Source of the DNA: Planctomycetia bacterium
Lineage (GTDB): Bacteria; Planctomycetota; Phycisphaerae; Phycisphaerales; SM1A02
Reading direction: 5' to 3'
Length of the DNA stretch: 18,564 bases
Assembly: GCA_009936695.1 (NCBI GenBank)
Contig: JAACEA010000135.1
Span: 1 to 18,564, forward strand
Below the pieces are notes generated by a model. That model did not search any database. It saw nothing but the letters and a program-made list of their open reading frames with translations, and had not been told where the DNA came from. The translations under genes and the position numbers were made by a program. Positions 2,548 through 18,407 of this stretch are shown piece after piece; positions within the stretch are counted from its first letter, which is position 1, and the number at the start of each line of letters is the position of its first letter.

Positions 2548-2576
2548 TCGACGACCTGCCGGCCATCCCCTACCCT
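2548..2576 (+). promoter_or_regulatory. Candidate leaderless sigma-70-type promoter of the glycosyltransferase gene
   Basis: TCGACG (4 of 6 to TTGACA), a 17-base spacer, then TACCCT (TANNNT type), which ends six bases before a GTG codon at 2583. No SD is seen before that GTG. The spacing places the transcription start at or next to the GTG, as in leaderless genes. The individual elements are weak; the call rests on the same geometry recurring at other first genes in the window. Confidence 0.45.
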
Positions 2577-2582
2577 TCGTCC

Positions 2583-4694
2583 GTGCCCGCACCGTCATCC
2601 CCCACCCTCGACTCGACGGACGACCGCCGGGGCCCGCTCGGGGTGCTGGCCGGCCTCGCGATCGTGATCCTCACGATGCTCCTGTTGGGTATCGGAGACG
2701 ATCGAGGCCTCATCGGTCTGGTCGGCGTGGCCGTGGTGGTCGAAACAGGCTGGCCGGCGGCGCTCTGGATGCTGGCGGCCGCGGGGCTCGGCCACACCAT
2801 CGGCGGACTGGTCGGGCCCGGTTCGGATGATTCGAGCGGACGGCGGATCCGGGACTGGTCGATCGGCGTCGCGGCCCTGCTCGCGGTCGACCTGATGCTG
2901 GGTTGGTCCGGAATCGGGACGAATCGTCCGCTCATGCTCGGGATCTCGATCGGGCTCGCGGGACTCGGCCTCTGGTCGTTTCGAGGGTGGCGACCCGGCG
3001 TCCCGGGCCTCGGGCTCGCCGCCGCGATTCCGATCGGAACCATGATGCTCGCTGCGGCGAGCATTCCGGGCTGGTTGTGGGAGACCGAGTTCGGCGGGTA
3101 CGACGCACTCTCCTACCACCTCCAACTCCCCCGGGAATGGTGGCTTGCGGGCGCGATCATCGAGACGCCTCACAATGCCTACGGGTACCTGCCCAACGGC
3201 GTCGAGGCCGCCTTCCTCCATCTCAACACGCTCGTGGGGGATCCCGGCGTCGCCGCTCGATCATGCCAGATGCTCGCCATGCTCCTCGTGCTCGGGGCCG
3301 CGTTCGCCACCGGGGAACTGGCGACGACCCTGCTCGGGGATGACGACCCCGCCGCCCCGGACGCCCGGCGACTCGCCTTCGTCGCCTTGCTCGCGACGCC
3401 GTGGGTCGTCGTCGTCGGCTCGCTCGCCTACGACGAACCCGCGGTGCTCATGCTCGGCGGCGCCGCCTTCACCGCGATCCTCACCGACCGCGGCTCGGCA
3501 TCGGGTTCGAGGCTCGGAATCACGCTCGGCCTGCTGCTCGGTGGCGCGGTGCTCGCGAAAGCCTCGTCCGGCCTGCTGCTGCTACCACCCGTCGCCCTCG
3601 CCGCGGCCATCGTCGTTCCGCCACGTCGGTGGCCGGCGGTCGTGCTCTGGACCGCGATCCTCGGCGTCGCGATCTGCCTCCCCTGGCTTCTGCGGAACTG
3701 GAGCTGGACGGGCAATCCCGTGTTCCCCTTCGTCACCGATCTGCTTGGACGAGGCGACTGGACGTCGGCCCAGATCGATCGTTTCAACGTCGGACACCAG
3801 ACGTCGATCGGCGAAGGCCTTCGCGCGATCGGAACGGAATTCCTCTTCGAAGACTGGTGGCGACCGTCCGGCGTCGATCCATGGCGGCCGCAATGGGTCT
3901 GGCTTCCGATCGGCGGATTCGTGTCGATGATCGCGCTCTCGCGCCGCGGGATCTCGGGGCGACGAGCCGCCGCGATGCTCGTGGCGGCGGTGGGCATGGT
4001 GCTTGTCTGGGCCCTCCTCTCCCATGCGAAAGCCCGTTTTCTCCTGCCCATCGCCCCGCTCCTCGCCGCGGCGATCGCCGCGCTCGCGAGCCGATCACTG
4101 GGCGAATCCCGTGGCGCGGTCCGAATCGGCATCATCACGACGGCATGGGCGGTGTCGCTGGTTCCGGCGATCGTGCTGGGTACCGAACGCTTCGGCAACC
4201 CGACCGCGGCGATCGAGAACCCCGGGCTCTTCGATGGCGGACTCGAGTCGAGCCTGATGAAGACCGTCGATCCCGCCCGGCGACGCGAACTGATCGACAC
4301 GGCGAGCCCCGCCTGGGTCCTCAACCATGGACTCGACGGTGACGCACGGGTGCTCCTCGTCGGTCGGGCCGATCCGTTCCACTTCGGGTTTCGCGACGAG
4401 TCCGGCGGCGACGACCGCCTCTCGTACCAGACGGTCTGGACCCGCGGCCCGCTGGAGCGGATGCTCGCCGGGATCGATCCGGACCTCGCGGAGGCATCAC
4501 GGGCCGAAGCCGCCCTCGAGGCACTCGCCTCGGCGGGATACACCCATGTCTACATCGATCGAGCGATGCTCGATCGATGGCGCGACGCGGGCTGGTCGGA
4601 CCCGCTGCTCACCCCCGAGCTGATCGAGGCGATCGCGGCCAGCCGCCCCCCCGTCGCCCGGTTCGGAGACCGGGGATTCGTCGTTCGTCCTTGA
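2583..4694 (+). CDS. Polytopic membrane glycosyltransferase of the GT-C / family 39-like type
   Basis: About 703 residues with many hydrophobic segments through roughly residue 550, followed by a soluble C-terminal part. GT-C enzymes transfer sugars from polyprenyl-phosphate donors on the outer face of the membrane. Supporting motifs are YDALSYHLQLPREWW near residue 173 (Asp174 lies in the first large outside loop, where the catalytic Asp of GT-C enzymes sits), LPWLLRNWSWTGNPVFPF near 366-383 (a typical signature of this family), and HAKARFLLPIAPLLAA near 481. The C-terminal approximately 150 residues (LVGRADPFHFGF..., YTHVYIDRAML...) look like a small alpha/beta domain outside the membrane. 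Substrate and acceptor cannot be inferred. I prefer the GTG at 2583 because of the promoter geometry; an in-frame ATG at 2508 would add 25 unconserved-looking residues. The gene stands alone, divergent from flgI, so a role in flagellin or surface glycosylation is only a guess. Confidence 0.72.
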   Translation: MPAPSSPTLDSTDDRRGPLGVLAGLAIVILTMLLLGIGDDRGLIGLVGVAVVVETGWPAALWMLAAAGLGHTIGGLVGPGSDDSSGRRIRDWSIGVAALLAVDLMLGWSGIGTNRPLMLGISIGLAGLGLWSFRGWRPGVPGLGLAAAIPIGTMMLAAASIPGWLWETEFGGYDALSYHLQLPREWWLAGAIIETPHNAYGYLPNGVEAAFLHLNTLVGDPGVAARSCQMLAMLLVLGAAFATGELATTLLGDDDPAAPDARRLAFVALLATPWVVVVGSLAYDEPAVLMLGGAAFTAILTDRGSASGSRLGITLGLLLGGAVLAKASSGLLLLPPVALAAAIVVPPRRWPAVVLWTAILGVAICLPWLLRNWSWTGNPVFPFVTDLLGRGDWTSAQIDRFNVGHQTSIGEGLRAIGTEFLFEDWWRPSGVDPWRPQWVWLPIGGFVSMIALSRRGISGRRAAAMLVAAVGMVLVWALLSHAKARFLLPIAPLLAAAIAALASRSLGESRGAVRIGIITTAWAVSLVPAIVLGTERFGNPTAAIENPGLFDGGLESSLMKTVDPARRRELIDTASPAWVLNHGLDGDARVLLVGRADPFHFGFRDESGGDDRLSYQTVWTRGPLERMLAGIDPDLAEASRAEAALEALASAGYTHVYIDRAMLDRWRDAGWSDPLLTPELIEAIAASRPPVARFGDRGFVVRP

Positions 4695-4718
4695 GGACCC
4701 ACCGATCGATCAGTCCTC
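4693..4718. terminator. Possible bidirectional hairpin between two convergent genes
   Basis: GAGGAC (4693-4698) and GTCCTC (4713-4718) form a perfect 6-bp stem around a 14-base loop. The stem overlaps the TGA of the glycosyltransferase gene on one side and straddles the end of the zinc-ribbon gene (its stop codon is at 4710-4712) on the other. There is no T-tract on either strand, so it would not be a classical intrinsic terminator. A 6-bp stem can occur by chance in DNA this GC-rich. Confidence 0.25.
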
Positions 4719-5168
4719 GACGCCGTCCGGATCCCACGGAAGTGGGCGAATGTCGGGAAGTCCGAGGTGGTTTCGATCGAGCCACGCCCCGAATCGCACC
4801 CCGCACGCGGGACAGGATGCGAGATGCGGCTCGATCTTCGCCCGGCAGGCATGGCAGTCGCCGAGATGGTGCGCGACGCACGGCACGCACTTCGCGACCG
4901 TCCACAATTGTCCGGTCGTCGGCCCTCGCAGCACGGTGTACCGCGTCACTCTCGACTCGTCGATCATCACGAGAAGACGCTCGTAGGCGATCCCGGGTCG
5001 GAACGGCCGGGATTCATCGCGAACGAACCAGGGACCCATCTCGTTCTGGGTCGCCTGACGGCTCAACGGCGAGAATTCGCCGTTGCAGGCGACGCAGGTG
5101 GCCGAGGCCGGCTGACCCTTCCCGCAGTACGGACACACCACGACCTTTCCTGACTTCGACTCGGACAT
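4710..5168 (-). CDS. Small cytosolic zinc-ribbon protein with GYF_2-like segment
   Basis: 152 residues with no signal peptide or membrane helix. Three cysteine clusters are visible: CPYC...CVAC (about residues 12-29) and CVPC...CHAC plus CPAC (about 95-125). They suggest two or three zinc ribbons at the two ends. Between them, the segment GPWFVRD...YERLLVMIDESRVTRYTVL...GPTTGQLWTVA has the layout of a GYF_2-like domain (Gly-Pro-Trp start, helix, 'trytvlrgp..gqlW'). This domain is often found in planctomycete proteins of unknown role. Zinc ribbons and GYF_2 domains generally mediate protein contacts, so a regulatory or adaptor role is possible but not shown. ATG 5168 is chosen because the protein becomes ordered from there, and TACCCT lies exactly six bases upstream with no SD. 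A much longer open frame upstream on this strand is a compositional shadow of the parvulin gene. Confidence 0.7.
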   Translation of the reverse strand: MSESKSGKVVVCPYCGKGQPASATCVACNGEFSPLSRQATQNEMGPWFVRDESRPFRPGIAYERLLVMIDESRVTRYTVLRGPTTGQLWTVAKCVPCVAHHLGDCHACRAKIEPHLASCPACGVRFGAWLDRNHLGLPDIRPLPWDPDGVED

Positions 5169-5174
5169 TCCCGG

Positions 5175-5203
5175 AGGGTAGTTCACCTCGAGGCGCTTGA
5201 CGA
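5175..5203 (-). promoter_or_regulatory. Candidate leaderless promoter of the zinc-ribbon gene
   Basis: On the minus strand: TCGTCA (4 of 6 to TTGACA), a 17-base spacer and TACCCT, then six bases to the ATG at 5168. The -10 hexamer and the six-base gap are the same as at the glycosyltransferase gene. Its -35 bases (5198-5203) coincide with those of the opposing promoter. Confidence 0.5.
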
Positions 5204-5226
5204 ATGCAGGCCGGCCGTGGGAGCCT
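5197..5226 (+). promoter_or_regulatory. Candidate leaderless promoter of the parvulin lipoprotein gene
   Basis: TTGACG (5 of 6 to the -35 consensus) at 5197-5202, an 18-base spacer, and GAGCCT at 5221-5226. This is a poor -10, but the important second-position A and last-position T are kept. The ATG follows six bases later at 5233. An alternative reading is that GGGAG at 5219-5223 is an SD for the same ATG, nine bases away. Both cannot operate on the same transcript if it starts at the ATG. Confidence 0.4.
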
Positions 5227-5232
5227 CGCCGC

Positions 5233-6231
5233 ATGTCGATCCCCCGAACACGATTCCAACCCCGCCTCGCCACGATTCCACGCATCCGGCGTCTCGGCAC
5301 CCGGATTCTCCGCCTGCCGGTCCTCCTCCTTCCGATGCTCGGGTCCGGCGGATGCGAGACTGCTTCATCGACCGGCTCGGCCCGGTACGAGGTCCAGGCC
5401 CCGCCGCCACCCCGTCCGATCGCCCTCGTGGGTCGCGAACGCGTCACCATCGCCGAAATCGAACCCCAGCTCCTCGAAGCCGTCGGCGGACGAATCGTGC
5501 GCGAACGCGTGCTCGACGCCCGACTCGCCCGCGAGGCCGCCCGGGAGGGGATCGAGATCGATGCCGACGATCTCCAGCGTGAACGGAATCTCCTCACCGT
5601 GACGCTCGCGGAGGACCCCGATCGCGCCGAACGCCTGCTCGACGAACTCCGACGGAATCGGGGCCTCGGACCGATTCGGTTCGAAGCCCTGCTTCGGCGG
5701 ACCGCGCTGCTGCGTCGACTGGTGGCCGAGGAGGTCGAGATCACGGATGCGGCGCTTGAAGGCGCCCACGATCTCGCCCATGGCCCGCGGCGGGTCGCGA
5801 GGATCGTGGTGGTCGAGGATCTCCGGGCCGCGTCGGATGCCCGCCGAAGCCTGGATGCCGGGACGCCGTTCGCGACGGTCGCCGTCGAACGGAGTCTCGA
5901 TGCGAGCGCGGATCGAGGCGGACTGCTTGCGCCGGTCAGTCGACTCGACCCCTCCTGGCCCGTCGCGTTCCGCAGGGCGGTGTTCGACGCGGAGATCGGC
6001 CGGGTCTCCGAACCGGTCCGGATCGACGCTCGAACGCTGCTCATCCTCGTCGAAGCGGAACGCCCGGGCACCGGCGTCTCGCTCGACGCCGCGCGGGACG
6101 ACGCCGAGGCGGCGGCGCGACTTGCGATCGAACGACTTCTGATGGATCGACTCGCGCGCCGACTGGTTCCGGAGAATGCGATCGATCCGATCGATCCCTC
6201 GCTCCGTTGGAGCATGCCCCGGGGCGAGTGA
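5233..6231 (+). CDS. Parvulin-type peptidyl-prolyl isomerase / SurA-like periplasmic lipoprotein
   Basis: 332 residues. The basic N-terminus is followed by a hydrophobic stretch and LPMLGSGGC, giving a probable lipidated Cys41, although the lipobox is imperfect (Gly at -2). A SurA_N-like chaperone region follows from about residue 65: ALVGRERVTIAEIEPQLLEA and VRERVLDARLAREAAREG, with a pattern typical of PpiC/SurA/PrsA proteins. The parvulin-like domain spans about 188-275, with FATVAVERSLDASADRGGLL (usual form FaelA.eyS.d.s...GG.LG) and a late AVFDAEIGRVSEPVRI motif. Several of the active-site residues of parvulin are hard to place, so it may act mainly as a chaperone. ATG 5233 gives a compact lipoprotein signal; an in-frame TTG at 5197 is weaker. 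It is convergent with an LptF/G pair, so the neighbourhood is outer-membrane biogenesis. Confidence 0.75.
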   Translation: MSIPRTRFQPRLATIPRIRRLGTRILRLPVLLLPMLGSGGCETASSTGSARYEVQAPPPPRPIALVGRERVTIAEIEPQLLEAVGGRIVRERVLDARLAREAAREGIEIDADDLQRERNLLTVTLAEDPDRAERLLDELRRNRGLGPIRFEALLRRTALLRRLVAEEVEITDAALEGAHDLAHGPRRVARIVVVEDLRAASDARRSLDAGTPFATVAVERSLDASADRGGLLAPVSRLDPSWPVAFRRAVFDAEIGRVSEPVRIDARTLLILVEAERPGTGVSLDAARDDAEAAARLAIERLLMDRLARRLVPENAIDPIDPSLRWSMPRGE

Positions 6232-6247
6232 CGCCGCCCGACCTCGG

Positions 6248-7360
6248 TCAGCTCCGGAGGTAGGCGAGTCGCCCGAAGGCGACCGGCAGGAGGATGGCGA
6301 CGGGAAGGAACGCCCCCACGCCGGGCGGAAGATCGCCGATCGCCACGGTGGTCGCGGCCAGCGTGCCGACGAGAATTCCGATCGCGACCGCCGCCGCCTT
6401 CATCGACTGCCCCAGCATGTTCACGGCCGCGGTCCGTTCGAGGAAGAACGGCACCACGATCGCCATCACCAGCAGGTTCACCAGGGCGCCGCTGAACCGT
6501 CCGAAGATCACCCGGTCGAGTCCGCCGTCGGACGCCCCGCCGTCTCCCCGCATCGACCGGAGCTGGCTGATCGAGAGCATCTGGGCGAAGTTCTTGCTTC
6601 GCCGTGCGAGCAGCTTCTGGGGCGACAGATCGGTCTCCCAGACGTCGATCTCGCTTCGCAGCGCGAGCCGTCCGTCATCGCCGGTTCGGGTCCCCACCAC
6701 CCGGCCGCCCTCGAGCCGCCAACCCTCGATCGCATCGTCCCAGGTCGCGGACGGTGCCGTGATGCGTTCCTCGGCGACGCCGGTCTCGCCGCGTCGCAGG
6801 ACGAGCAGCGACTTCGCGGTCCCCGCGTTGGGATCGATCGAGGACGCGAAGAGCAGGGCGCCCTGCGCATCCCGGGCGAGTGGCACCTCGAAGGTCTCCA
6901 CGCCGGGCTGGAGCACCCGATCGTGGACGCGGTTCAACTTCGTGGCCAGTCTCGGAAGGATGATCTCCTGATCCACGAGCTGCAGCAGCACCAGGCCGAC
7001 CTGAGCCGCGATGATCGCGGCGGCGATCCGGTGCAACGGGATGCCCGCGGCCATGATCGCGACCAGTTCACGGCTCCGGTGCATCTGCACCAGCGTGAAC
7101 CCCGCCGCCGCCACGCCGACGAGGCCCACCATGAACGCGTAGAACTGGAAGATCCGCGGGCCGTGGAAGTCCAGCACGCCCTGCACGAAGACGACCGGCA
7201 CCCAGCGGCCATCGCGCTCCGCGACGAACTCCGCCGCCTCGACGAACTCGTCGAACTGGACGACCACGTCGATCGAGATCGCGAACACGAACAACAACGT
7301 GAACAGGAGCGCGAAGTTCCCGAGGAATCGAAGGATGATGTGACGATCGAGAAGCAGCAT
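6248..7360 (-). CDS. LptF/LptG-family permease (second gene of the pair, LptG-like position)
   Basis: 370 residues, the normal length of the YjgP/YjgQ family. LptF and LptG form the inner-membrane part of the LptB2FG transporter that extracts LPS and passes it to LptC/LptA. The protein begins MLLLDRHIILRFLGN, the family's usual 'lDrYil..fl' start, with a first membrane helix at about residues 8-30. Two more helices flank the conserved segment with HRSRELVAIMAAGIPLHRI (family pattern 'R..EL.al.aaGis..ri'). A periplasmic jelly-roll-like region at about 145-260 is followed by three C-terminal helices. ATG 7360 is chosen: it lies ten bases after the stop of the upstream permease gene and shortly after an AAGG. 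An upstream in-frame ATG at 7489 would overlap that gene by 119 bases. Which paralogue is LptF and which is LptG cannot be settled by eye. Confidence 0.85.
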   Translation of the reverse strand: MLLLDRHIILRFLGNFALLFTLLFVFAISIDVVVQFDEFVEAAEFVAERDGRWVPVVFVQGVLDFHGPRIFQFYAFMVGLVGVAAAGFTLVQMHRSRELVAIMAAGIPLHRIAAAIIAAQVGLVLLQLVDQEIILPRLATKLNRVHDRVLQPGVETFEVPLARDAQGALLFASSIDPNAGTAKSLLVLRRGETGVAEERITAPSATWDDAIEGWRLEGGRVVGTRTGDDGRLALRSEIDVWETDLSPQKLLARRSKNFAQMLSISQLRSMRGDGGASDGGLDRVIFGRFSGALVNLLVMAIVVPFFLERTAAVNMLGQSMKAAAVAIGILVGTLAATTVAIGDLPPGVGAFLPVAILLPVAFGRLAYLRS

Positions 7361-7370
7361 GACCTTCGAT

Positions 7371-8996
7371 TCAGTTGCGACGAAGACGGGACCAGGCGAC
7401 GAGACAGGTACCGCCGAGAATGAGATTTCCAGACCAGATGAGCAGATAGCCCCAGAAATCGGGCTCACGCCGAAGCAACTGCTCACCACCCGAGATCAGG
7501 ACGATGTCGAGAATGGCCGGGATGAAGGCGAAGACGTAGACGGTCAGCGGCGGCGAATTGCGCATGAGGACCGCCAGCACGGAGCCCAGGATCAGGAGCA
7601 ACGGACCCATGCAGGCCTGGGCGAGGCGTTGTTGCATCCGTCCGTCGATGTCCCAGATCAGATTCCGTGCCGATCGTTCGTGCGACGCGAGTTCCGCTTC
7701 GAACTTCGCGCGAAGGGACGCGGAGGCGATCGAATCGACGTCCAGGCTCCGGGCGGTGGCGACGATGTCCGCGGGGGTCGCCGTCTCGTCGAAGTCGACG
7801 CGCCCCGGCGGAACGACCAGGTTCCTGATCTTCGCGGGAAAGACGCGTCCGCCCGCGGCAGGTTCCTCGACCGCGACGGGGTCGAGCAGTTCGGCGTCGA
7901 AGACCGCCTCGCCGTCGCGCCAGGACTCCATGAGCCGCAGACCCGAACCCGTCGCCCGGGCGATTCGGCCGTCGGGGAACACCATCTCCACCGAGGGACG
8001 TGCGATCGTGAACACGCCCTCCTCGAAGGTCACACCCTCCTGCGAGCGGATCCGCCACGCGGCGTCCCGCGCGACATCCCGGAGTTCGACGGACTCCCCC
8101 GTCGCGAAGGCGTCGGCGAGCAGGCGATGGGTCGCATCTCGATGCAGCAGCGCCTCGAGCCGCGCGACGCTGTCACCGAGACCGGGGAACCGGGTCGGTT
8201 CCGCCTTGATCCGGTACATCTCGGGAAGCGTCAGCATCTTGACACCGAGCCGGAAACCGCGTCCGAGATCGATCGCTCGTGGTTCGGCGGTCGGAAGACG
8301 GACCAGCGTCGCGTCCCCGGCCCGGAAGAGGGTCGCATCACCGAGCACGAGCTTCAGCACCGATCGCCCATCGAGACGATAGAGATCCATCGTGGCGTAG
8401 TCGGCGGTGAATTCCGTCTCCGGGCGTCCGGCGGAGTCGAGCTGCAACGCGGCCACGCCCACCAGCACCAGTCGGGTGTCGGCGGTCGAGCCGTCCGGGG
8501 CTTCCTGCACCAGGACGTCGTCGGCGTAGATCCGGGTGTCCCCCATCGAAAACGCCTCGCCACGTTCCACCGCGGACGCCAGCAGGCGAGTCACGTCGTG
8601 GGCGAGCAGCGACTCCATCCTCGACCAGAACATCGGCACGAGAAACTCCACCAGGGCGAGCATCACCAGCAGCAGCACCGCCGCCAGCACGAAGATCGGC
8701 CTGAAGATGCGGCTCGGCGACAAGCCGCTCGCCCGCATCGCGAGGATCTCGTTGTCGGTCGCGAGGCGGTGCATGACCAGCGTCGCCCCGAACCCCGCCG
8801 CGAAGGGCAGGGCGTACTCCATCATCGGAATCGCGGCGAAGAAGACGTACTTCAGGATGTCGGCCCCGCCCAGCAGATTCCTGGACAGGGGCTTGATGGC
8901 GGTTCCGAACGCGATCACCGCCACGAGAATCAGGGTGGTGAGGAGGATCGTCTTGAGGAATTCTCCCGCCAGATAGCGGGTGAGCAGACGGAGCAT
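7371..8996 (-). CDS. LptF/LptG-family permease with enlarged periplasmic domain (LptF-like position)
   Basis: 541 residues, far above the approximately 360 of typical family members. The family core is clear: helix 1 near residues 14-33, the segment LPFAAGFGATLVMHRLATDN followed by EILAMRASGLSPSRI (family pattern 'sEl.alrasGvs..ri'), and a helix near 100-120. Three membrane helices occupy the last 100 residues, starting at ACMGPLLLILGSVLAVLM. The extra length sits in the region between the third and fourth helices (about 130-440), where the periplasmic beta-jellyroll is normally found. The role is LPS extraction from the inner membrane together with the adjacent gene. The ATG at 8996 has no SD but carries a -10-like GACGAT six bases upstream. 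It is the first gene of a two-gene operon. Confidence 0.83.
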   Translation of the reverse strand: MLRLLTRYLAGEFLKTILLTTLILVAVIAFGTAIKPLSRNLLGGADILKYVFFAAIPMMEYALPFAAGFGATLVMHRLATDNEILAMRASGLSPSRIFRPIFVLAAVLLLVMLALVEFLVPMFWSRMESLLAHDVTRLLASAVERGEAFSMGDTRIYADDVLVQEAPDGSTADTRLVLVGVAALQLDSAGRPETEFTADYATMDLYRLDGRSVLKLVLGDATLFRAGDATLVRLPTAEPRAIDLGRGFRLGVKMLTLPEMYRIKAEPTRFPGLGDSVARLEALLHRDATHRLLADAFATGESVELRDVARDAAWRIRSQEGVTFEEGVFTIARPSVEMVFPDGRIARATGSGLRLMESWRDGEAVFDAELLDPVAVEEPAAGGRVFPAKIRNLVVPPGRVDFDETATPADIVATARSLDVDSIASASLRAKFEAELASHERSARNLIWDIDGRMQQRLAQACMGPLLLILGSVLAVLMRNSPPLTVYVFAFIPAILDIVLISGGEQLLRREPDFWGYLLIWSGNLILGGTCLVAWSRLRRN

Positions 8997-9002
8997 CCCG
9001 CC

Positions 9003-9031
9003 ATCGTCGCGGGCGGGCGCCCAAGTCGCAA
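9003..9031 (-). promoter_or_regulatory. Candidate leaderless promoter of the LptF/LptG operon
   Basis: On the minus strand: TTGCGA (4 of 6 to TTGACA), a 17-base spacer, and GACGAT (second-position A and final AT kept). Six bases then separate it from the ATG at 8996, and no SD is present. The geometry matches the other leaderless-looking starts. Confidence 0.4.
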
Positions 9032-9045
9032 GCCGTCCACGTCCT

Positions 9046-9065
9046 CGTCCGATCGATCTCGGACG
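9046..9065. repeat. 7-bp perfect inverted repeat in the divergent lptF-pilV spacer
   Basis: CGTCCGATCGATCTCGGACG: 7-bp arms around a 6-base centre TCGATC, lying 50-69 bases upstream of the LptF/G start codon. It could be an operator or simply a chance palindrome. A second, 6-bp repeat (GGATCG-AGC-CGATCC) lies at 9160-9174. Apart from these and the lptF promoter I see no clear promoter for the pilin operon in the 227-base spacer. Confidence 0.3.
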
Positions 9066-9212
9066 TCGGGTCGTCCGGGTCGTGCGGGATTCCCCGACGA
9101 AGAGGACCCGAGAACCCGCGGCGGGCGGGCGACCGGCGGGGTCGTCACGGACACCGCCCGGATCGAGCCGATCCCCTTGAGGTCGGTGCGAGGCCGTTCA
9201 CGCCCCGACTTG

Positions 9213-9218
9213 AGGAGG
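9213..9218 (+). promoter_or_regulatory. Ribosome binding site of the first pilin gene
   Basis: AGGAGG within a run of GAGGAGGAG, five bases before the ATG at 9224. This is the strongest SD in the window together with that of flgI. It implies a transcript with a real 5' leader, unlike neighbouring first genes. Confidence 0.8.
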
Positions 9219-9223
9219 AGAAC

Positions 9224-9673
9224 ATGCGTGGACAACGTCCCGAGGGCATCCCCCGCGGCCTGACCCTCGTCGAATCGATCGTCGCCTCGGCGATTCTCGC
9301 CGTCGCGATCACCGCGGTCTTCTCGGCGGTCGCCTCCGGCCGGGCCCACGCGGAAGTCGCCGCCGACGAACTCGCGGCGACGGTGGCGGCCGAGGATCTC
9401 CTCGCCCGCGTGCTCAACTCCGATTTCGATCGCATCGACGACTGGAACGACCACGAGGAAGCCCCCGGCGAACTGGTGGATGCGGAAGGCGTCTTCCTCG
9501 CCCCCGCGATGCAACGGGTCGGACGTCGCGTCCGCGTCGAGCGACGCACACACACCATCTTCGAATCGAACGCGATCCCCGGTCGAGCGATCATCGTGGA
9601 GATCTTCGATCGCGAGCAACGAACCACCGCATCGATCTCCCGCTGGATTCCCGACCCGGAACCCGATTCATGA
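9224..9673 (+). CDS. Minor pilin/pseudopilin, PilV/GspI-like
   Basis: 149 residues with a class III (prepilin) signal. Cleavage by prepilin peptidase is expected between Gly12 and Leu13 in PRGLTLVES, with the conserved Glu at mature position +5 (Glu17), followed by the hydrophobic helix SIVASAILAVAITAVF. The short soluble head and the 'LTLVE.lvA..ilav' signature resemble GspI/PilV proteins, which sit in the tip complex of type II secretion pseudopili or type IV pili. It is the first of four overlapping or closely spaced pilin-like genes; the stop overlaps the next ATG (ATGA). T2SS and T4P families cannot be separated without knowing whether pilY1, gspC/D or pilQ genes are present. Confidence 0.82.
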   Translation: MRGQRPEGIPRGLTLVESIVASAILAVAITAVFSAVASGRAHAEVAADELAATVAAEDLLARVLNSDFDRIDDWNDHEEAPGELVDAEGVFLAPAMQRVGRRVRVERRTHTIFESNAIPGRAIIVEIFDREQRTTASISRWIPDPEPDS

Positions 9674-10287: not shown

Positions 10288-10307
10288 GAAGCATGAGGAG
10301 CATGACG

Positions 10308-11879: not shown

Positions 11880-12361
11880 ATCGACGAGGCCTCACCCTGA
11901 TCGAGACGATCGCGGTCCTCGTGCTGGTCCTCGGGATCGCGGGACTCGCGATTCCCCTGCTCGGCAACGATGCCGGTTCGCGGCTCGCGGCGGCCTCCAT
12001 GATGCTGCGGGACGATCTCGAACAGGCTCGCTATCGCACGATCTCGGATCCGGCCGATCCGGTCACGCTGGTCGTGGATGCCGATGGCTGCGGATGGTCG
12101 CTCGCGCGCGACGCCGATCGAACGACACCGATCCTCCGGGGCGACGGCGAGCCGTGGACGGTTCGGTTCGACGACCCTCGAACGACCGATCTCGCCGGCA
12201 TCCGGGTGGTGACCGACCTGACGGATCGATGCGTTCGATTCGACCCCCGCGGGGTGCTCGTGAACGGTGCCAAGCCTTCGATGCGTCTCGAACTCGGGGA
12301 CGACCACCGACGGCTCGACATCGGCGTGGTGAGCGGCCTCGTCGCGATTCGTCGGGACTGA
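11876..12361 (+). CDS. Minor pilin/pseudopilin, FimT/GspH-like
   Basis: 161 residues. Prepilin signal MNRRG then LTLIETIAVLVLVLGIAGLA, with Glu at mature +5 (Glu10). GspH/FimT proteins are minor pseudopilins with a small beta-rich head. Here the motif DDLEQARYRTISDPADPVTL after the helix is the usual 'l...l..aR..Ai....pvtl' of GspH/FimT, and GVLVNGAKPSMRLELGD near the end matches their 'G......i.l' ending. The start is a GTG in a GTGA overlap, with a good SD (GAGGT) five bases upstream. In many genomes the H-type gene comes first; here it is last. The gene is followed within 25 bases by a convergent gene. Confidence 0.8.
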   Translation: MNRRGLTLIETIAVLVLVLGIAGLAIPLLGNDAGSRLAAASMMLRDDLEQARYRTISDPADPVTLVVDADGCGWSLARDADRTTPILRGDGEPWTVRFDDPRTTDLAGIRVVTDLTDRCVRFDPRGVLVNGAKPSMRLELGDDHRRLDIGVVSGLVAIRRD

Positions 12362-12366
12362 TTCCC

Positions 12367-12388
12367 GATCGCCGCGAGAATCTCGATC
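12367..12388. repeat. Short inverted repeat between convergent genes
   Basis: GATCG (12367-12371) pairs with CGATC (12384-12388) across a 12-base loop that itself contains part of CGAGA-A-TCTCG (12375-12385). It lies between the FimT-like stop and the stop of the convergent secreted-protein gene. There is no T-tract. It is a weak candidate for a shared termination site. Confidence 0.2.
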
Positions 12389-15239
12389 AGCGCCGGGACG
12401 GCCCGACCCGGTCACCAGCGACGGGTCGCGCGAGCAGCCTTCGAACGTCGAGGAAGGTGATCGCTCCGTCACCATCGACGTCCCGGGGATCGAACCGTCG
12501 ATCGAGATCCGTACCGAGCCCGCGCATGATCTCGAACAGGAGATCCTCGGGGCTGATCTCCGGCCGTCCCGCGTCGATCGCGGTCGAACCCGCGGGCCCG
12601 TCGGCCCGGATGGAGTCCTCCGATGGCGTGATCAGTCCCGGAACCGGGAGGCGCGGCGTGTCCACGTAGACGCGTCGCAGGATCAGGGAGGACACCAGTT
12701 CGTGGTTCTCATCGCCGAGCATGAACCGCGAGGGCGGCGTTTCATGGATGATCGGGAGCACCACCGTCGCCGGTGTCTCCCCGAGGCTTCCCGCCGCCAC
12801 CACCGAGATCGACATCCGACCGCCCTGGCGCCGGAGATCGACGTTGATCGTGTCCCCACGATTGAGATCGAGATCCTCCATCTGTCCGACGAACCAGGAG
12901 TCGGTTCCGACGATCGATTCGATGAGCACGGATCCATCGTTGATCCCGGAGCGAAGTCCGAGATACCTCCCGGCGCCGAATTCGAAGGTGCAGAGCGGCA
13001 TCGACTCGACGCGGGTTCCGATCGAGTAGTCCAGGCCGTCCGGTGGGAGTTGAAGCTCGGCCCCCACCCTCCACTCGCCGCCTCTGATCCCCAGCGGCTG
13101 GGACACCCGGGTGGAAGGCACCACGCCGTCGGTGATCGCCTCCCGGACCCAGTTCGGTTTGCCGGTCCGATCGGTCAGACTGCGAATGACCAGCAGGAAA
13201 TCGACCGAGGCGAAGTCGGGGTCGATCGGGTTGTAGAGCGCGATCGTCGACGTCCGGGGGGCGAGGAGCGTCGGTGACCAGGCGTCGATGTCGTTCCAGT
13301 CACCGGTCGAGACGATGTTGTGCGTCCGTTCGTAGGAAAATCCGCCACGCCAGACCCGCGTCTGGAGTCGCAGCTTCCCGCTCAGCAGGTTGCAGACCTG
13401 AAGATGAACCGCGGTCGACGACGTGGCGTTCGCGCCCGGCGGGTGTGGGTCGTCGATGCGGGCCGCCAGCAGCCGGGTGGTGCCCGTCGGACTCCCGGTG
13501 ACCCGATAGCACACCGAGTCGGGGGCGAGACCGAGGCCGTGGCCCCCGGGGATGTCGGAGGGTTCGACCCGCTCGACCGAGACGCCGTTGCCGATCTGAA
13601 GCTCGTCCGGGGGACGATGTGCACCGGTGTCGTCTCGCAGAAGGTCGACGCCGCCCGGCAGCGCCAGCAGGCCGGCCTGCGTTCGATCCTCCGATGGCAC
13701 CGCCGCCTTGAAGATCCCACTGGGGCCAAGTGCTCGGAATCGGTGGACGCAGACCCCTCCGTCCACGAGAAAGGGAACGGCGTACTGCTCGAAGTCTTCG
13801 GGAAGTCGGGCCACGGTGGCGAAGGACTCGCCCGTCGCGGAATAGAGGATGCGACTGTAGGTGTCGTTTCCACTCCACTCGAAGACCTGTCTCGCCACCA
13901 CCGGCCCGTTCGTCTGGGGAGTCGAGCGTTGCAGCCAACCGACGGTGTTGCCCGCCGTGCCGTACGCAAGGATCGAGGGCTGAAATCCGAGCATCTCGCG
14001 AAAGACCGGCAGATGCTCCTCGGACTCGGGAACCTCGAGATCGAGGATGGCGGAGGAGACGTTGTCTCCTCCACAGATCAGGTTGTTCACATCGTTCGCG
14101 GGACAGCAACTCCAGAACTGGTTCGTGGTCACCTGCGTGACCCCGTCACCGAGCTGGCCCTGCCATCGGGGGATGACGGTCCAGTTCGTGGGATCGTCGT
14201 AGTTCTCCCAGTCCGAGCACTTCGCCAGGACCAGCCGGCTCTTCGTGGCATCACCGATCGAGATCGTGACGCCGTTCGGCGTCCAGCCGGCCGCGTGGAA
14301 GTGCTCGCCCTCGCTCCGCCAGCTGGAGTGGACCTCGTAGAGCGGACCGATCTCCCACGCGGATTCGACCGACTCCCGCCGGACCCGGAAGAGCCCGCAC
14401 TGTCCACCCGTGGCCCGGCGCGTCGACTGGTGGTTCATGTAGTCCACGAGCGGCACGAACGCCTCGAGCAGATCGCCGCCCCTGGTCGTGGGATAGAACG
14501 CCGACATGCTGCTGAGAAAGCCGCGCTGGAAGAGATGCGCATCGGGATCGTCCGGCGGCGGCATGTCCATCGAGTGGGTCCAGACCCAATCGCCCTCCGA
14601 ATCCTCCTGCATCGCCGCGACGGTCACCCCGGAGATCCGCCAAGTGGCCGCGCCGCCCTTCGGATCCCCCTCGATTCGATCGCTTCGCTGCAACAGAAAC
14701 AACATGCAGCCGGGCAGCATCACCCCGCTGGCCACCCGATGCGTCCGGTCCGGACGTTCGAACGCCGTTCCTTGGAACGCGTCAGGTACCGGCTGCCCGT
14801 CTATCTCACGGCGATGGGAGATGCGGCGTGTGGGCGGCAGGTGGAAGTCGTCCCCGTTCCAGATCGACAGTTCGAAACGCCCGCGATCGTAGATGGCGAC
14901 CCTCGATTCACCCCCGTCGCGAGATCGCCCCGTGAGCACCACCGATGCGACCGACATCGAGTCGCACTGAGGCCGCCAGGGACCGGCGTTGAGCCCGTTG
15001 CGCGCCTGGTCGAAGCGCGGTTCGTCAGCCGCGATCTCGCGGCCACGGGCCTCATCCCAGATCGCCACGCCATGATCGATCTCGATGGGCGGAAGGGTCG
15101 ACACGATTCCGTCATCGAAGATCGCCTCCCGGCGGACCATGTCGTCATCGGCCGAAAGAGGCGCGACGATCGCCGCGACGCAGACCAGCGTGAGCAGCGA
15201 TCCGAACGCGGAATCGATGGCGCAACATCTCTTCATCAT
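12387..15239 (-). CDS. Large secreted protein of unknown function with dockerin-like C-terminal Ca2+ loop
   Basis: 950 residues. Residues 1-30 form a Sec signal peptide (MMKRCC, hydrophobic core, cleavage after PLSA). I do not recognise the family. Residues 100 to about 560 contain repeated strand-turn-strand blocks (RGRFELSIWNGDDFHL, HFHAAGWTPNGVTISIGDA, YSRILYSATGESFATVARL) that look like beta-propeller or sialidase-type blades. About 720-890 look like a jelly-roll/LamG-type domain (EWRVGAELQLPPDGLDYSIG, TFEFGAGRYLGLRSG). Near the C-terminus DVDGDGAITFLDV (920-932) is a textbook EF-hand/dockerin calcium loop, preceded by a degenerate partner. Single dockerin-like repeats of this kind are frequent in planctomycete exoproteins. 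Eleven or so cysteines in the mature part suggest disulfides. The TTG-less start at 15239 has a second ATG at 15236. No partner gene is adjacent; it is convergent with the pilin operon. Confidence 0.7.
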   Translation of the reverse strand: MMKRCCAIDSAFGSLLTLVCVAAIVAPLSADDDMVRREAIFDDGIVSTLPPIEIDHGVAIWDEARGREIAADEPRFDQARNGLNAGPWRPQCDSMSVASVVLTGRSRDGGESRVAIYDRGRFELSIWNGDDFHLPPTRRISHRREIDGQPVPDAFQGTAFERPDRTHRVASGVMLPGCMLFLLQRSDRIEGDPKGGAATWRISGVTVAAMQEDSEGDWVWTHSMDMPPPDDPDAHLFQRGFLSSMSAFYPTTRGGDLLEAFVPLVDYMNHQSTRRATGGQCGLFRVRRESVESAWEIGPLYEVHSSWRSEGEHFHAAGWTPNGVTISIGDATKSRLVLAKCSDWENYDDPTNWTVIPRWQGQLGDGVTQVTTNQFWSCCPANDVNNLICGGDNVSSAILDLEVPESEEHLPVFREMLGFQPSILAYGTAGNTVGWLQRSTPQTNGPVVARQVFEWSGNDTYSRILYSATGESFATVARLPEDFEQYAVPFLVDGGVCVHRFRALGPSGIFKAAVPSEDRTQAGLLALPGGVDLLRDDTGAHRPPDELQIGNGVSVERVEPSDIPGGHGLGLAPDSVCYRVTGSPTGTTRLLAARIDDPHPPGANATSSTAVHLQVCNLLSGKLRLQTRVWRGGFSYERTHNIVSTGDWNDIDAWSPTLLAPRTSTIALYNPIDPDFASVDFLLVIRSLTDRTGKPNWVREAITDGVVPSTRVSQPLGIRGGEWRVGAELQLPPDGLDYSIGTRVESMPLCTFEFGAGRYLGLRSGINDGSVLIESIVGTDSWFVGQMEDLDLNRGDTINVDLRRQGGRMSISVVAAGSLGETPATVVLPIIHETPPSRFMLGDENHELVSSLILRRVYVDTPRLPVPGLITPSEDSIRADGPAGSTAIDAGRPEISPEDLLFEIMRGLGTDLDRRFDPRDVDGDGAITFLDVRRLLARPVAGDRVGPSRR

Positions 15240-15334
15240 GAGCAGGGTCCCCGTTCCTCCGAGATGATCATGGGCGCGCCTCCGCCGCCCGGCAACTCGT
15301 CCGGCCGATTTCCGACGAAGTACCGACGGTCGCC

Positions 15335-15369
15335 CGGCGGGGTCCGAGAACCCGCCGAGGGGGCCCTCG
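15335..15369. repeat. Two adjacent inverted repeats in the spacer downstream of the response regulator
   Basis: CGGCGGG (15335-15341) pairs with CCCGCCG (15351-15357) across nine bases. Partly overlapping it is CGAGGG-GG-CCCTCG (15356-15369). They lie about 40-75 bases beyond the response regulator stop and upstream of the secreted-protein gene, so they could end the first transcript or lie in the second gene's promoter region. There is no T-tract. The rest of the 170-base spacer shows nothing I can name. Confidence 0.3.
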
Positions 15370-15409
15370 ACCCGAATCGACGGATTGATCCTCTGGCGAC
15401 CCTCGGAGG

Positions 15410-16801
15410 TCAGCGGAGCCCGTATTCCTTCAGCTTGCGATAGAGCGTCCGCTCGCCGATGCCCAGGAGGTTCGCCGTCTGCTCCCGGTTCCCGCCGGTC
15501 AGGGCGAGGGTCTGGCGAATCGCCTCCTTCTCAAGGCGGTCGAGGCCGACGCCCGCGAGCGAACCGATGCTGGTCCCGTCGTCGTCGCCGTCCTCGGTCC
15601 GGATCTCCTCCGGGACGTCGCGGCCCTCGATCCGATCATCGTCGCAGGCGATCACCATTCGATGCACCGCGTTGAACAGCTCACGCACGTTTCCGGGCCA
15701 GGCATAGCTCACCAGTCGAAGCATCGCGGGCTCGCTGACCTGTGGAATCGGGCGTTCCATCTCCGCCGCGAATCGACCGGCCGCATGGTTCACCAGCAGG
15801 GGGATGTCCTCACGTCGGGCTCGAAGCGGTGGAATGCTGATCTCCACGCCGCGGATCCTGAAGTAGAGGTCCTCGCGGAAGTCGCCGGTGGCGGACATCG
15901 ACTTCAGATCGCGATTGGTCGCGCTGACGAAACGCACGTCGGCCTTGCGAGCTTCGTTCGAGCCGAGCCGGATCACCTCCCCGCTCTCGAGCACCCGCAG
16001 GAGCTTCGGCTGCATCGCCAGGGGCATGTCCCCGATCTCGTCGAGGAAGAGCGTTCCACCGTCGGCGTACTCGAAGACCCCCTCGCGATCGCGATCCGCA
16101 CCGGTGTACGCACCACGGACGTGGCCGAACAGCTGATCCTCCAGCAGATTCTCGCTCTGGCCCGCGGTGTTGAAGGTCGCATACCGCTTCCGGGCCCGCT
16201 TGCTGAGCTTGTGGATCGCGGCCGCGACGAGCTCCTTCCCGGTACCGCTCTCGCCCGTCACGAGCACGGGAATCGTACTTGGCGCCACCTTGCGGATCGC
16301 CTGCACCACCTGCCGGATCCCGGCTGAATCACCGATGATGCCCTCGAATCCGTAGGCGGCGCCGAGCTGATCCTCCAGCCGCGCGGTGCGATGCCGGAGC
16401 AGGACCGTCTCCGCGGCCCGATCCACGAGGTTTCGAAAGACCACGAGGTCGAGCGGCTTCTCGATGAAGTCGTAGGCCCCGCCCTTGAGCGCCGCCTTCG
16501 CCGTGGGGACGTCGCCATGGGCGGTCACGAGAATCGTCTCGGCATCGGGCTGGTGCTCCTGCACGAGCGCGAGCACGTCGAGTCCCGACGTCTCGGACTC
16601 CATGACGAGATCCGTGACCACGACGTCGAAGGCGCCGTGCAGGAGTTCCTCGCGGGCCGATTCCAGCCCGTTCACGATGGTGCAGACGTGACCGGGCCGG
16701 CGGAGGGATTCCGCCATGACTTCGGCGTGTTCCGGCTCGTCGTCGACGAGCAGGACCTGGGCTCGGAGTTCTTCTCGGGAAGGAGCGTCGTTCGTGGACA
16801 T
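15410..16801 (-). CDS. NtrC-family sigma-54-dependent response regulator
   Basis: 463 residues in three domains. The receiver (about 14-130) has acidic pocket Asp20-Asp21, phospho-acceptor Asp64 in VVVTDLVM, Thr93 and Lys115. The sigma-54 AAA+ domain (about 155-390) has Walker A GESGTGKE at 184-191, the sigma-54-contacting loop GAYTGA at 231-236 (usually GAFTGA), Walker B GGTLFLDEIGD at about 249-259, SATNRDL, the arginine-finger region REDLYFRI, and WPGNVREL. A C-terminal Fis-type helix-turn-helix follows (LEKEAIRQTLALTGGNREQT, then ANLLGIGERTLYRKLKEYGL). It would open sigma-54 promoters when phosphorylated. No histidine kinase is adjacent, so the signal is unknown. The ATG at 16801 has TACAAT six bases upstream and no SD. 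It is divergent from murC. Confidence 0.93.
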   Translation of the reverse strand: MSTNDAPSREELRAQVLLVDDEPEHAEVMAESLRRPGHVCTIVNGLESAREELLHGAFDVVVTDLVMESETSGLDVLALVQEHQPDAETILVTAHGDVPTAKAALKGGAYDFIEKPLDLVVFRNLVDRAAETVLLRHRTARLEDQLGAAYGFEGIIGDSAGIRQVVQAIRKVAPSTIPVLVTGESGTGKELVAAAIHKLSKRARKRYATFNTAGQSENLLEDQLFGHVRGAYTGADRDREGVFEYADGGTLFLDEIGDMPLAMQPKLLRVLESGEVIRLGSNEARKADVRFVSATNRDLKSMSATGDFREDLYFRIRGVEISIPPLRARREDIPLLVNHAAGRFAAEMERPIPQVSEPAMLRLVSYAWPGNVRELFNAVHRMVIACDDDRIEGRDVPEEIRTEDGDDDGTSIGSLAGVGLDRLEKEAIRQTLALTGGNREQTANLLGIGERTLYRKLKEYGLR

Positions 16802-16807
16802 GTCCGG

Positions 16808-16813
16808 ATTGTA
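16808..16813 (-). promoter_or_regulatory. -10 element for a leaderless response-regulator transcript
   Basis: TACAAT (5 of 6 to TATAAT) on the minus strand, ending exactly six bases before the ATG at 16801. This is the best -10 of the set. I see no convincing -35 at 16-18 bases upstream. There is no SD. Confidence 0.55.
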
Positions 16814-16863
16814 CGAGGAGAGGCCCGACCATCGGGCGGCGGACGCGAAGTCGGTTACCGGCT

Positions 16864-16894
16864 GCGACAACGGACGCCGATGCGCCGATAGACT
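16864..16894 (+). promoter_or_regulatory. Candidate leaderless promoter of murC
   Basis: TAGACT (16889-16894, TANNNT type) ends seven bases before the murC ATG. GCGACA (4 of 6 to -35) lies 19 bases further upstream, a longer than ideal spacer. There is no SD. The 100-base region between the divergent response regulator and murC therefore holds both promoters. Confidence 0.4.
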
Positions 16895-16901
16895 CCACAA
16901 G

Positions 16902-18407
16902 ATGCCAGCCGAAACCGATCCCAGCACGACCCCGGAACGCCGGAGCGATCCGGACTTCCAGGGTCGATCCGTCCACTTCGCGGGGATCGGCGGCTCGGGC
17001 ATGAGCGGCCTCGCCAGGCTGATCCAACGGCGTGGCGCCACCTGCAGCGGCACCGACGCGGCCGATGGTCCCCTCGTGGAGGAGCTTCGCACGTCGGGCA
17101 TGGCCGTCTCGGTCGGCGAGTCCGACGACGCCACGCTCCCCGCATCCTGCGACCTGCTCATCGCCAGTGCCGCGATTCCGCCGGAACACCCGCTGCTCGC
17201 CGACGCCGACCGCCGGGGGATCGAGGTCATCTCCTACGCGGAAGCCGTGGGCCGGGCCATGCTCGGCCGGACCGCGGTCTCCATCGCCGGGACCCATGGC
17301 AAGAGCACCACCACCTCGATGCTCGCCCACGTCCTCGTGCAATGCGGCCTCGACCCGAGTTTCATCGCCGGTGCGAACTGCCGACAGCTCGGGGGCGGAT
17401 CGCGAGTCGGGGCGGACCGGCTGCCCAATCGTCTCGATGATCCTGCGGCGGGCGATCGACCCGGGATCTTCGTGGCCGAGGCCTGCGAGTTCAATCGCTC
17501 CTTCCACCACCACCACCCGACCATCGCGTTGATCAACAACGTCGAAGAGGACCACCTCGACTTCTACGCCTCGATCGACGAGATCGTGGAGAGCTTCCAC
17601 GACTTCGCGCGGATCCTGCCTCCCGCGGAGGTCGGCGGGCGACTGCTGATCGCCCACGAAGGCGGTCACCGACGAGAGATCTCCGCGGGACTCCGCTGCG
17701 GAGTCGCGACGTTCGGCTTCTCGCCCGACGCGGATCACCAGGTCTTCTTCGACGCCTCCGCCCGACGAATCGGCATTCTCGAGCACGGCGCATTCGTCGC
17801 GGAATGGACGACGCGCCTCGCCGGACACCACAACGCCCTCAACGCCGCGGCGGCGGGCATCCTCGCCCACTGGCTCGGCGCGGACTGGGACGACGTCGCC
17901 GAAGCGCTCGCCGCCTTCGAAGGCGTCGACCGGCGGATGCAGCTGCTGGGAACGATGCCGACCGCGGACGGAGGGACCGCGACGATCTTCGACGACTACG
18001 GCCATCATCCGAGCGAATGCGAGGCCACCCTCCGAGCCCTTCGCGTCGCCGAGAATCCCGGCCGGCTCATCTGCGTGTTCCAGCCGCATCAGCACAGTCG
18101 GACGCGATTCCTGCTCGACCAGTTCGCCCACGGTTTCTCGCACGCGGATCTGGTGGTGGTCCCCCGGATTCACTTCGTTCGGGACAGCGAGGAGGAGCGT
18201 CGCCGGATCTCCTCTGGAGATCTCGTGGACCGGCTCCGTTCCCACGGAACCTCGGCCATGCACGTGCACCCCTTCGAAGCCATCGTCGAGCAGCTCGAGG
18301 CGATCGGACGCGACGGCGACCTGATCGTGGTCATGGGCGCCGGCCCGGTCTGGCAGATCGGCCGAAGCCTCGTGGACCGCGCGACCAACCCCGGTCCGTC
18401 CGCGTGA
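16902..18407 (+). CDS. murC: UDP-N-acetylmuramate--L-alanine ligase MurC
   Basis: 501 residues. MurC adds L-alanine to UDP-MurNAc with ATP, the first amino-acid step in making the peptidoglycan stem peptide in the cytosol. All family landmarks are present: the UDP-binding Gly loop HFAGIGGSGMSG (25-36), the ATP loop GTHGKSTTT (130-138, Lys134), EACEFNRSF from 193, NNVEEDHLDFY, GHHNALNAAAAG, DDYGHHPSE (364-372) and FQPHQHSRTRFL. The EACE and EEDHLDFY forms resemble MurC of Gram-positive and PVC-type bacteria more than the E. coli form. A Gly/Arg/Asp-rich stretch at about 165-190 (GGGSRVGADRL and what follows) is longer than I expect there. ATG 16902 is chosen because it gives a short disordered lead-in before HFAGIGG and has TAGACT seven bases upstream. 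murB follows with a GTGA overlap. Confidence 0.96.
   Translation: MPAETDPSTTPERRSDPDFQGRSVHFAGIGGSGMSGLARLIQRRGATCSGTDAADGPLVEELRTSGMAVSVGESDDATLPASCDLLIASAAIPPEHPLLADADRRGIEVISYAEAVGRAMLGRTAVSIAGTHGKSTTTSMLAHVLVQCGLDPSFIAGANCRQLGGGSRVGADRLPNRLDDPAAGDRPGIFVAEACEFNRSFHHHHPTIALINNVEEDHLDFYASIDEIVESFHDFARILPPAEVGGRLLIAHEGGHRREISAGLRCGVATFGFSPDADHQVFFDASARRIGILEHGAFVAEWTTRLAGHHNALNAAAAGILAHWLGADWDDVAEALAAFEGVDRRMQLLGTMPTADGGTATIFDDYGHHPSECEATLRALRVAENPGRLICVFQPHQHSRTRFLLDQFAHGFSHADLVVVPRIHFVRDSEEERRRISSGDLVDRLRSHGTSAMHVHPFEAIVEQLEAIGRDGDLIVVMGAGPVWQIGRSLVDRATNPGPSA

Follow-up and report, generated by a model that had tools for sequence, protein, structure and literature searches.

Results

TANNNT hexamers abut four genes of a planctomycete contig

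The DNA analysed here (the window) is an 18,564-nucleotide stretch of contig JAACEA010000135.1 from a planctomycete of the order Phycisphaerales (assembly GCA_009936695.1; 3.01 Mb in 592 contigs, 88% complete). It carries a hexamer of the form TANNNT a few bases before the start codons of four genes, which encode a membrane glycosyltransferase-like protein, a zinc-ribbon protein, an NtrC-type response regulator and a MurC-like Mur ligase (Table 1). A sequence-only reading of this DNA had proposed that these hexamers are -10 promoter boxes of leaderless transcripts and that they stand at one distance from the start codon. All of the hexamers were found as placed, but the distance is not a single one: three lie 6 bases from the start codon and that of murC lies 7. 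TANNNT is indeed rare in this GC-rich window (GC content 0.676), as had also been claimed; 10 sites occur on both strands together (37 kb of strand), and four of the ten are the boxes before starts. Calculated from base composition, the probability of TANNNT at a spacing of 6 or 7 (i.e. bases between hexamer and start codon) is 0.0085 per start, which gives 4e-7 for at least four of eight starts and 5e-6 for at least four of 14; these probabilities are post hoc, and the actual density of TANNNT is far under the expectation from composition.

The functions of the glycosyltransferase-like and zinc-ribbon genes are those named by the sequence-only reading. No Pfam family was found for the former at E<=1e-3, and the Pfam search gave none for the latter. 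The glycosyltransferase-like frame is open from 2508, and the protein read from 2583 has matches in 17 of 19 genomes; the zinc-ribbon protein has matches in 15 of the 19 genomes searched (own genome included in both counts). Four other genes provide a contrast that had been described correctly, being led by Shine-Dalgarno (SD) sequences: GGAGG precedes flgI and the first pilin gene and, in the window itself, GGAG precedes flgN and GAGG the FimT-like gene. In two divergent pairs, zinc-ribbon/parvulin (5169-5232) and response regulator/murC (16802-16901), the start codons are only 64 and 100 bases apart, and these gaps are predicted to contain both promoters of each pair and no leaders.

Table 1. 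Genes, candidate promoter boxes and Shine-Dalgarno sequences of the window.
Feature	Position	Strand	Remarks
GGAGG Shine-Dalgarno of flgI (SD-led contrast)	2457..2461	-	Kept in 4/4 genus loci with the gene; fifth stretch no match
-35-like hexamer TCGACG		+	17 bases upstream of TACCCT 2571-2576
Candidate -10 box TACCCT	2571-2576	+	6 bases upstream of GTG 2583, glycosyltransferase-like gene
Membrane glycosyltransferase-like gene	2583..4694	+	Predicted leaderless GTG
Zinc-ribbon gene	4710..5168	-	Predicted leaderless ATG
Candidate -10 box TACCCT	5175..5180 (read 5180-5175)	-	6 bases upstream of ATG 5168
Candidate -35 box TTGACG, parvulin gene	5197..5202	+	18 bases upstream of GAGCCT; TTGACGAATG in 6/6 genomes compared, own included
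Weak -10-like box GAGCCT	5221..5226	+	6 bases upstream of ATG 5233
Parvulin-type (PPIC) peptidyl-prolyl isomerase gene	5233..6231	+	Pfam PF13145, E 9e-9
LptF/LptG-family gene	7371..8996	-	Pfam PF03739, E 7.5e-32; predicted leaderless ATG
Weak -10-like box GACGAT	9003..9008	-	6 bases upstream of ATG 8996
-35-like box TTGCGA	9026..9031	-	17 bases upstream of GACGAT
GGAGG Shine-Dalgarno of first pilin-like gene (SD-led contrast)	9214..9218	+	GGAG core kept 5/5
NtrC-type response regulator gene	15410..16801	-	Response_reg, Sigma54_activat, HTH_8; predicted leaderless ATG
Candidate -10 box TACAAT	16808..16813 (read 16813-16808)	-	6 bases upstream of ATG 16801
Candidate -10 box TAGACT	16889..16894	+	7 bases upstream of ATG 16902
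MurC-like Mur ligase gene	16902..18407	+	Mur_ligase, Mur_ligase_M, Mur_ligase_C; predicted leaderless ATG

The boxes are conserved with their start codons

Within the genus, all four genes have TANNNT at 5-9 bases from a candidate start in 8 of 8 genomes, the own genome included here and in the other counts of eight. Other 5-base windows at the same loci contain it in 0-3 of 8, the exception being spacings 0-4 of murC (5 of 8), whose spacer contains an in-frame ATG. The patterns kept in all eight genomes are TAC(C/G/T)CT-6-GTG for the glycosyltransferase, though the protein is only ~50% identical in five of the seven others, TACCCT or TAGGCT at 6 for the zinc-ribbon gene, TACAAT-6/7-ATG for the response regulator and TA(G/C)ACT-7-ATG for murC. 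In five of the eight the zinc-ribbon start lies 18 bases further upstream and there reads TAGGCT-6-ATG, indicating that box and start move as a pair.

Beyond the genus, TANNNT was present at 5-9 in 16 of 22 response regulator loci (at most 2 of 22 for any other 5-base window), in only 9 of 22 murC loci (other windows 1-5), in four of eight glycosyltransferase loci (other windows 0-2; two partial matches from one genome, L305 and L306, were excluded) and in none of seven zinc-ribbon loci. The box of the NtrC-like regulator is the most widely kept of the four.

The hexamer marks first genes of transcripts

DNA was sampled from five genomes of the order, namely the own genome (101 kb, 83 kb of it unmasked, plus the window), G005 of the same genus (382 kb), G016 of the same family (400 kb), and G028 and G026 (200 kb each); further samples of 200 kb came from G054 (same class) and from G049, G041 and G061 (same phylum). 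Genes were called by a small Markov gene finder that chose starts from coding potential and a start-codon prior only, so that the motif did not select the starts; the finder misplaced three of the window's four boxed genes and missed the other. From orientation and distance alone, genes were classed as first (upstream neighbour divergent, or co-directional at >=60 bases) or internal (<25 bases), and those at intermediate distances or next to contig ends were excluded.

With the five genomes of the order pooled, TANNNT stood at 5-9 in 79 of 649 first genes (~15 expected) and in 3 of 157 internal genes (Fisher p 2e-5); first genes with a divergent neighbour had it in 45 of 306 cases. Spacings 0 to 13 held 1, 3, 0, 0, 1, 10, 33, 12, 8, 17, 2, 4, 1 and 3 hits of first genes against a background of 3.0 per offset, and the control ranges 15-19 and 25-29 each gave 14 of 649. 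A TANNNT peak at -12 to -7 of first genes, which the sequence-only reading had predicted, is therefore present in these samples (33 of 649 at spacing 6). Counted at 5-7, hits numbered 5/40 in the own genome, 16/200 in G005, 19/213 in G016, 8/106 in G028 and 7/90 in G026, with per-offset backgrounds of 0, 0.70, 0.89, 0.33 and 1.07; the excess in G026 is borderline (p 0.05), and the hits of the own genome include none of the window's four boxes. Outside the order, G054, G049, G041 and G061 had TANNNT at 5-7 in 7/89, 3/86, 4/118 and 1/85 first genes, none of them above background. The hits at spacing 9 stem from first genes of G000, G005, G016 and G026, one being the same gene as a spacing-6 hit, and in none of the 17 is the triplet preceding the start ATG, GTG or TTG.

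The hexamer has the fixed letters T1, A2 and T6 of sigma-70 -10 elements. TANNNC, TANNNG and TGNNNT show no peak among first genes, and TANNNA (9 vs 6.1) and AANNNT (22 vs 14.2) show little excess. The favoured middle letters across the 80 hits at 5-9 are, in order, C, A, and A or C, and the commonest boxes are TACAAT, TACACT, TACCAT and TAGAAT. As in the definition of TA-led genes, the first T lies ~12 bases before the start significantly more often than background, and the hexamer is confined to single or operon-proximal genes.

Such a signal could in principle act in the translation or regulation of first genes, for example as an A/U-rich S1-binding element; the sections of PMC5397173 used here report that leaderless and S1 signals could not be separated in phyla such as Planctomycetes (one species). 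A translation signal would have no need to be confined to first genes, to keep T1, A2 and T6 around a free middle, or to be scarce on either strand of genes (see below). TANNNC, TANNNG and TGNNNT have no peak, and we regard this explanation as very unlikely. More improbable still seems an artefact, whether from base composition, from stop codons in frame or from the calling of starts. At spacing 6 the triplet TAN is in frame, and TAA or TAG stops just upstream of a start could mimic a peak. Yet the third base is a pyrimidine in 72% of the 80 hits and a purine in 27%, the other in-frame spacings 0, 3 and 12 hold 1, 0 and 1 hits, and when no genes are called an excess still appears in four of five samples and in 52 of the order's 56 genomes (described next), with no first-gene excess in the four sampled genomes outside the order.

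Counts made without annotation trace the signal to the order

TANNNT-n-ATG was counted on both strands with no gene calls. In the sampled DNA the count at n=6 stood against a mean over n=10-60 of 12 vs 1.0 in the own genome, 28 vs 9.5 in G016 and 23 vs 10.9 in G026. For whole genomes, the ratio of TANNNT-6-ATG to TANNNT-12-ATG was used; the own genome has 195 of the former and 36 of the latter. Of the 56 genomes of the order, 52 have a ratio above 1.4 (48 with p <1e-6; median 2.47; maximum 9.17, in G207), as do 18 of 192 from the rest of the class (7 with p <1e-6; median 1.10) and 3 of 41 from the rest of the phylum (2 with p <1e-6; median 1.05), although the ratios may be inflated since TANNNT-12-ATG is under the mean background in some samples (G005: 9 vs 16.4). 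The four genomes of the order under 1.4 (G285, G245, G277 and G202) have a high TANNNT background, yet in them too the count at 6 exceeds that at 12.

Outside the order the class is uneven: family f37 has a median of 1.45 (14 genomes), f26 and f33 have 1.27, and two f29 genomes exceed 4. These two, G126 (4.05) and G131 (4.32), and three genomes of other classes, G031 (1.95), G032 (1.71) and G038 (2.25), are perhaps separate occurrences of the same trait.

Deinococcus deserti plasmid 1 served as a positive control, and Sinorhizobium meliloti pSymB was counted as well. The positive control was weaker than expected, with 7/86 first genes at 5-7 (p 2e-3) and, without annotation, 28 counts at n=6 and 9-28 at other spacings; in pSymB TANNNT was found in 4/99 first genes (p 0.14).

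TANNNT is depleted inside genes

A further measure made no use of start codons: the frequency of T three bases past TA was set against that of T at positions 6, 9 and 12, which are in phase with it. With both strands counted, the ratio inside genes is 0.54 in the own genome (z -3.6), 0.53 in G005 (-16.3), 0.61 in G016 (-8.1), 0.68 in G028 (-6.7) and 0.81 in G026 (-3.9), and sense and antisense are both low. TA is the most depleted of the 16 dinucleotides in this comparison in 5/5 genomes of the order. Intergenic DNA of the same genomes is not depleted (0.96-1.13), nor are genes of G054 (1.00) or S. meliloti pSymB (0.98); those of D. deserti plasmid 1 are, at 0.80. The depletion fits a -10-only promoter, since a bare TANNNT able to start transcription would harm genes. 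The TA dinucleotide itself is at 0.21-0.45 of expectation in the order, lowest in the own genome (0.21), and at 0.46-0.78 in the other samples.

Shine-Dalgarno sequences persist beside the boxed genes

Among the 570 first genes outside the boxed set SD-like words precede 207, and among the 157 internal genes 68. Full-length 16S genes from relatives carry the anti-SD sequence CCTCC in 10 of 10 cases, none of them showing loss of the anti-SD; the remaining 10 of the 20 16S loci, including the fragment from the own genome, are partial. With the anti-SD intact in relatives, SD-led and leaderless modes can coexist, and both are probably in use. The part of PMC10783764 used here lists a value of 46 for Phycisphaerae in its table of anti-SD types, which probably gives the share of SD-bearing genes in per cent.

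Two weak boxes are paired with -35 boxes

The sequence-only reading had added two points, that -35-like hexamers lie upstream of most boxes and that GACGAT (LptF gene) and GAGCCT (parvulin gene) are variants of the hexamer. For the window's own promoters the first point stands: five of the six genes have at least 4/6 matches to TTGACA at spacing 17-19, the response regulator being the exception, though an equally good match occurs at 11.5% of window positions (spacings 15-20). Both variants do lie at 6, and they are conserved together with a -35 box in 6/6 genomes compared (own included), as TTGC(G/C)A-17-GAC(C/G)AT-6/7-ATG before the LptF gene and as TTGACG-18-GA(C/G)(C/G)CT-6/7-ATG before the parvulin gene. 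By sequence, a good -35 box would in each case accompany a weak -10 box. Neither point extends to first genes in general (see Discussion). GAGNNT is enriched there (18 vs 8.3 at 5-8), but it peaks at spacing 4, and this excess probably reflects SD sequences.

Discussion

From the position of the hexamer, its restriction to first genes, its conservation, its clade-wide excess and its depletion inside genes we infer the identity of a promoter, the 5' end of its transcript, the mode of translation and the reason for the depletion. The -10 hexamer occupies positions -12 to -7 of its transcript, and six bases between box and start codon would hence place +1 at the first base of the start codon. According to the proposed mechanism, a sigma-70-type promoter lies directly against the gene, with TANNNT as its -10 box. 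RNA polymerase would initiate ~7 bases past the box, on the first base of ATG or GTG, producing an mRNA with no leader (or one of one to three bases at spacings 7-9), and translation would begin at the start codon on the 5' end of this mRNA. Ordinary SD sequences would serve many operon-internal genes as well as many of the remaining first genes. A full -35 box would usually be unneeded, with a good one present at the window's two weak -10 boxes, and TANNNT would be purged from coding sequence because a bare box can start transcription. Whole-genome counts, orthologue conservation and depletion inside genes all support the leaderless reading that had been proposed for the window, and we put the probability of this explanation as a whole at roughly 0.9.

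The -10 elements could also be real and mostly followed by very short leaders (1-8 bases), initiation then not being from a 5'-terminal start codon. Of the 80 hits at 5-9, 37 have a spacing of 7, 8 or 9 (33 are at 6 and 10 at 5), and the 17 at spacing 9, where 3 are expected, form a second peak that strictly leaderless starts do not explain; boxes at that spacing perhaps have leaders of two or three bases. The mode is 6, however, exactly the distance from a -10 box to the start site. The base at -1 is C in 25 of the 33 spacing-6 hits, but C is common there in other first genes too (295/570). Mostly short leaders appear unlikely on this evidence, if less so than a translation signal, and initiation on the start codon is preferred.

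Besides the second peak, several results weigh against leaderless initiation from TANNNT or soften its support. The Phycisphaerales metagenome-assembled genome record L070, nearest to the response regulator protein (66% identity over the best segment), has no box there and no peak in its 21 kb. GANNNT is not enriched in first genes (38 at 5-8 vs 31.7 expected), and widening the hexamer to it was rejected for that reason. Among the 80 pooled hits of the five genomes, at least 4 matches to TTGACA at 15-19 were found in 12 vs 8.4 from shuffles, and the mean best matches were 2.61 vs 2.57; a general -35 box was rejected as a rule on these hits and retained for the window's own promoters, TTGNNA at -38 to -33 being somewhat over expectation (12 vs 6.0, p 0.02). 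Boxed first genes have an SD in 3 of 79 cases vs 9.2 expected given the space that the box itself takes up, and 30 of 2000 simulations were as low; the low count is mostly forced by the box occupying that space, and this overlay simulation weakens SD exclusion as a strong proof.

The annotation-free counts have their own weak points. In the G005 sample n=6 gives 32 against a mean of 16.4 and one other offset reaches 30, and the G028 sample has no peak (9 at n=6 vs 7.1). A reversed-pattern control at n=6 gave an excess in the own genome (195 vs 118) and none in the same-genus genomes G005 (282 vs 288) and G007 (258 vs 253). We do not rely on this control because it is unmatched, the forward counts at n=12 falling far under it (own 36 vs 108, G005 115 vs 275, G007 108 vs 263). 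Slight depletion inside genes is seen outside the order as well, in G049 (0.95), G041 (0.92, TA likewise being the lowest dinucleotide) and G061 (0.89), with z from -3.4 to -4.2, and the depletion reaches intergenic DNA in D. deserti plasmid 1 (0.85).

The number of genes concerned can be roughly estimated. The own-genome excess is ~160 and covers only ATG at exactly 6; including all spacings 5-9 multiplies the excess by ~1.4x in the own and G016 samples, by 2.6x in G005 and not at all in G026. Scaling the ~160 for these spacings puts the boxed genes of the own genome at ~230, around one in ten of the ~2,000 implied by the density of the gene finder (69 genes in 102 kb). The boxed share of first genes is ~10% in the pooled set after subtraction of background, 15% for divergent ones only and 27% in the own sample when all candidate starts are taken (11 hits for 40 genes), and our best reading is that in roughly 10-25% of first genes a -10 box starts transcription on the start codon, alongside SD-led genes.

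On balance we lean towards a wider statement, that in one planctomycete order some two hundred genes per genome are leaderless and transcribed from -10-only promoters; that most of the remaining class and phylum show the trait weakly or not at all; that TANNNT is purged because a bare -10 box starts transcription; and that this systematic planctomycete case originated or persisted in a single clade, the five outlying genomes named above being further, perhaps independent, cases. If so, gene finders that rely on SD sequences would, in these genomes, probably misplace the starts of a considerable fraction of genes. Sister clades that differ in the trait would allow possible drivers of leaderless gain and loss (GC content, sigma factor, ribosome) to be tested, and depletion of TANNNT inside genes offers a sequence-only gauge of bare -10 promoter activity that can be computed for any uncultured genome.

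Known systems place the observations in a familiar mechanism, in a lineage where it seems to have no earlier description. Lomsadze and colleagues reportedly defined, in 2018, a GeneMarkS-2 class of genomes with bacterial leaderless transcription. A GeneMarkS-2 survey of 5,007 genomes, as cited in the text of PMC9581028 used here, assigns leaderless transcription to 21.6% of bacterial species, and an earlier prediction for this order may be contained within it. In the planctomycete literature found, no description of leaderless starts in this order came to light; PMC5397173 alone, in the sections used, hints at leaderless and/or S1 signals in one planctomycete. The corresponding sections of PMC3160421 report leaderless genes in 207 of 953 genomes, and the bacterial groups listed there do not include Planctomycetes.

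Leaderless starts with TANNNT are already established for Actinobacteria and Deinococcus-Thermus, as the sequence-only reading had said (PMC3160421, same sections). The TA-led genes described there share with the present ones the TANNNT hexamer with a free middle ~12 bases before the start, a GC-rich genome, the expected operon-proximal position and coexistence with SD-led genes; the share is ~20% of genes in Actinobacteria and ~40% in Deinococcus-Thermus, compared with ~10-25% of first genes here. For Deinococcus, the part of PMC12340547 used here describes -10-only leaderless promoters, in which a -10 box beside an open reading frame has promoter activity that a -35 box enhances, and includes motif scans across bacterial phyla. 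With the -10-motif promoters of Deinococcus radiodurans the present system has in common a -10 box adjoining the open reading frame, and depletion of TANNNT inside genes is found in D. deserti plasmid 1 as well. It differs in its hexamer, which has C at position 3 in 55% of the 80 hits, and in the strength of the depletion inside genes: four of the order's five genomes (0.53-0.68) lie below D. deserti plasmid 1 (0.80), the fifth being at 0.81, and in the plasmid the depletion extends beyond genes.

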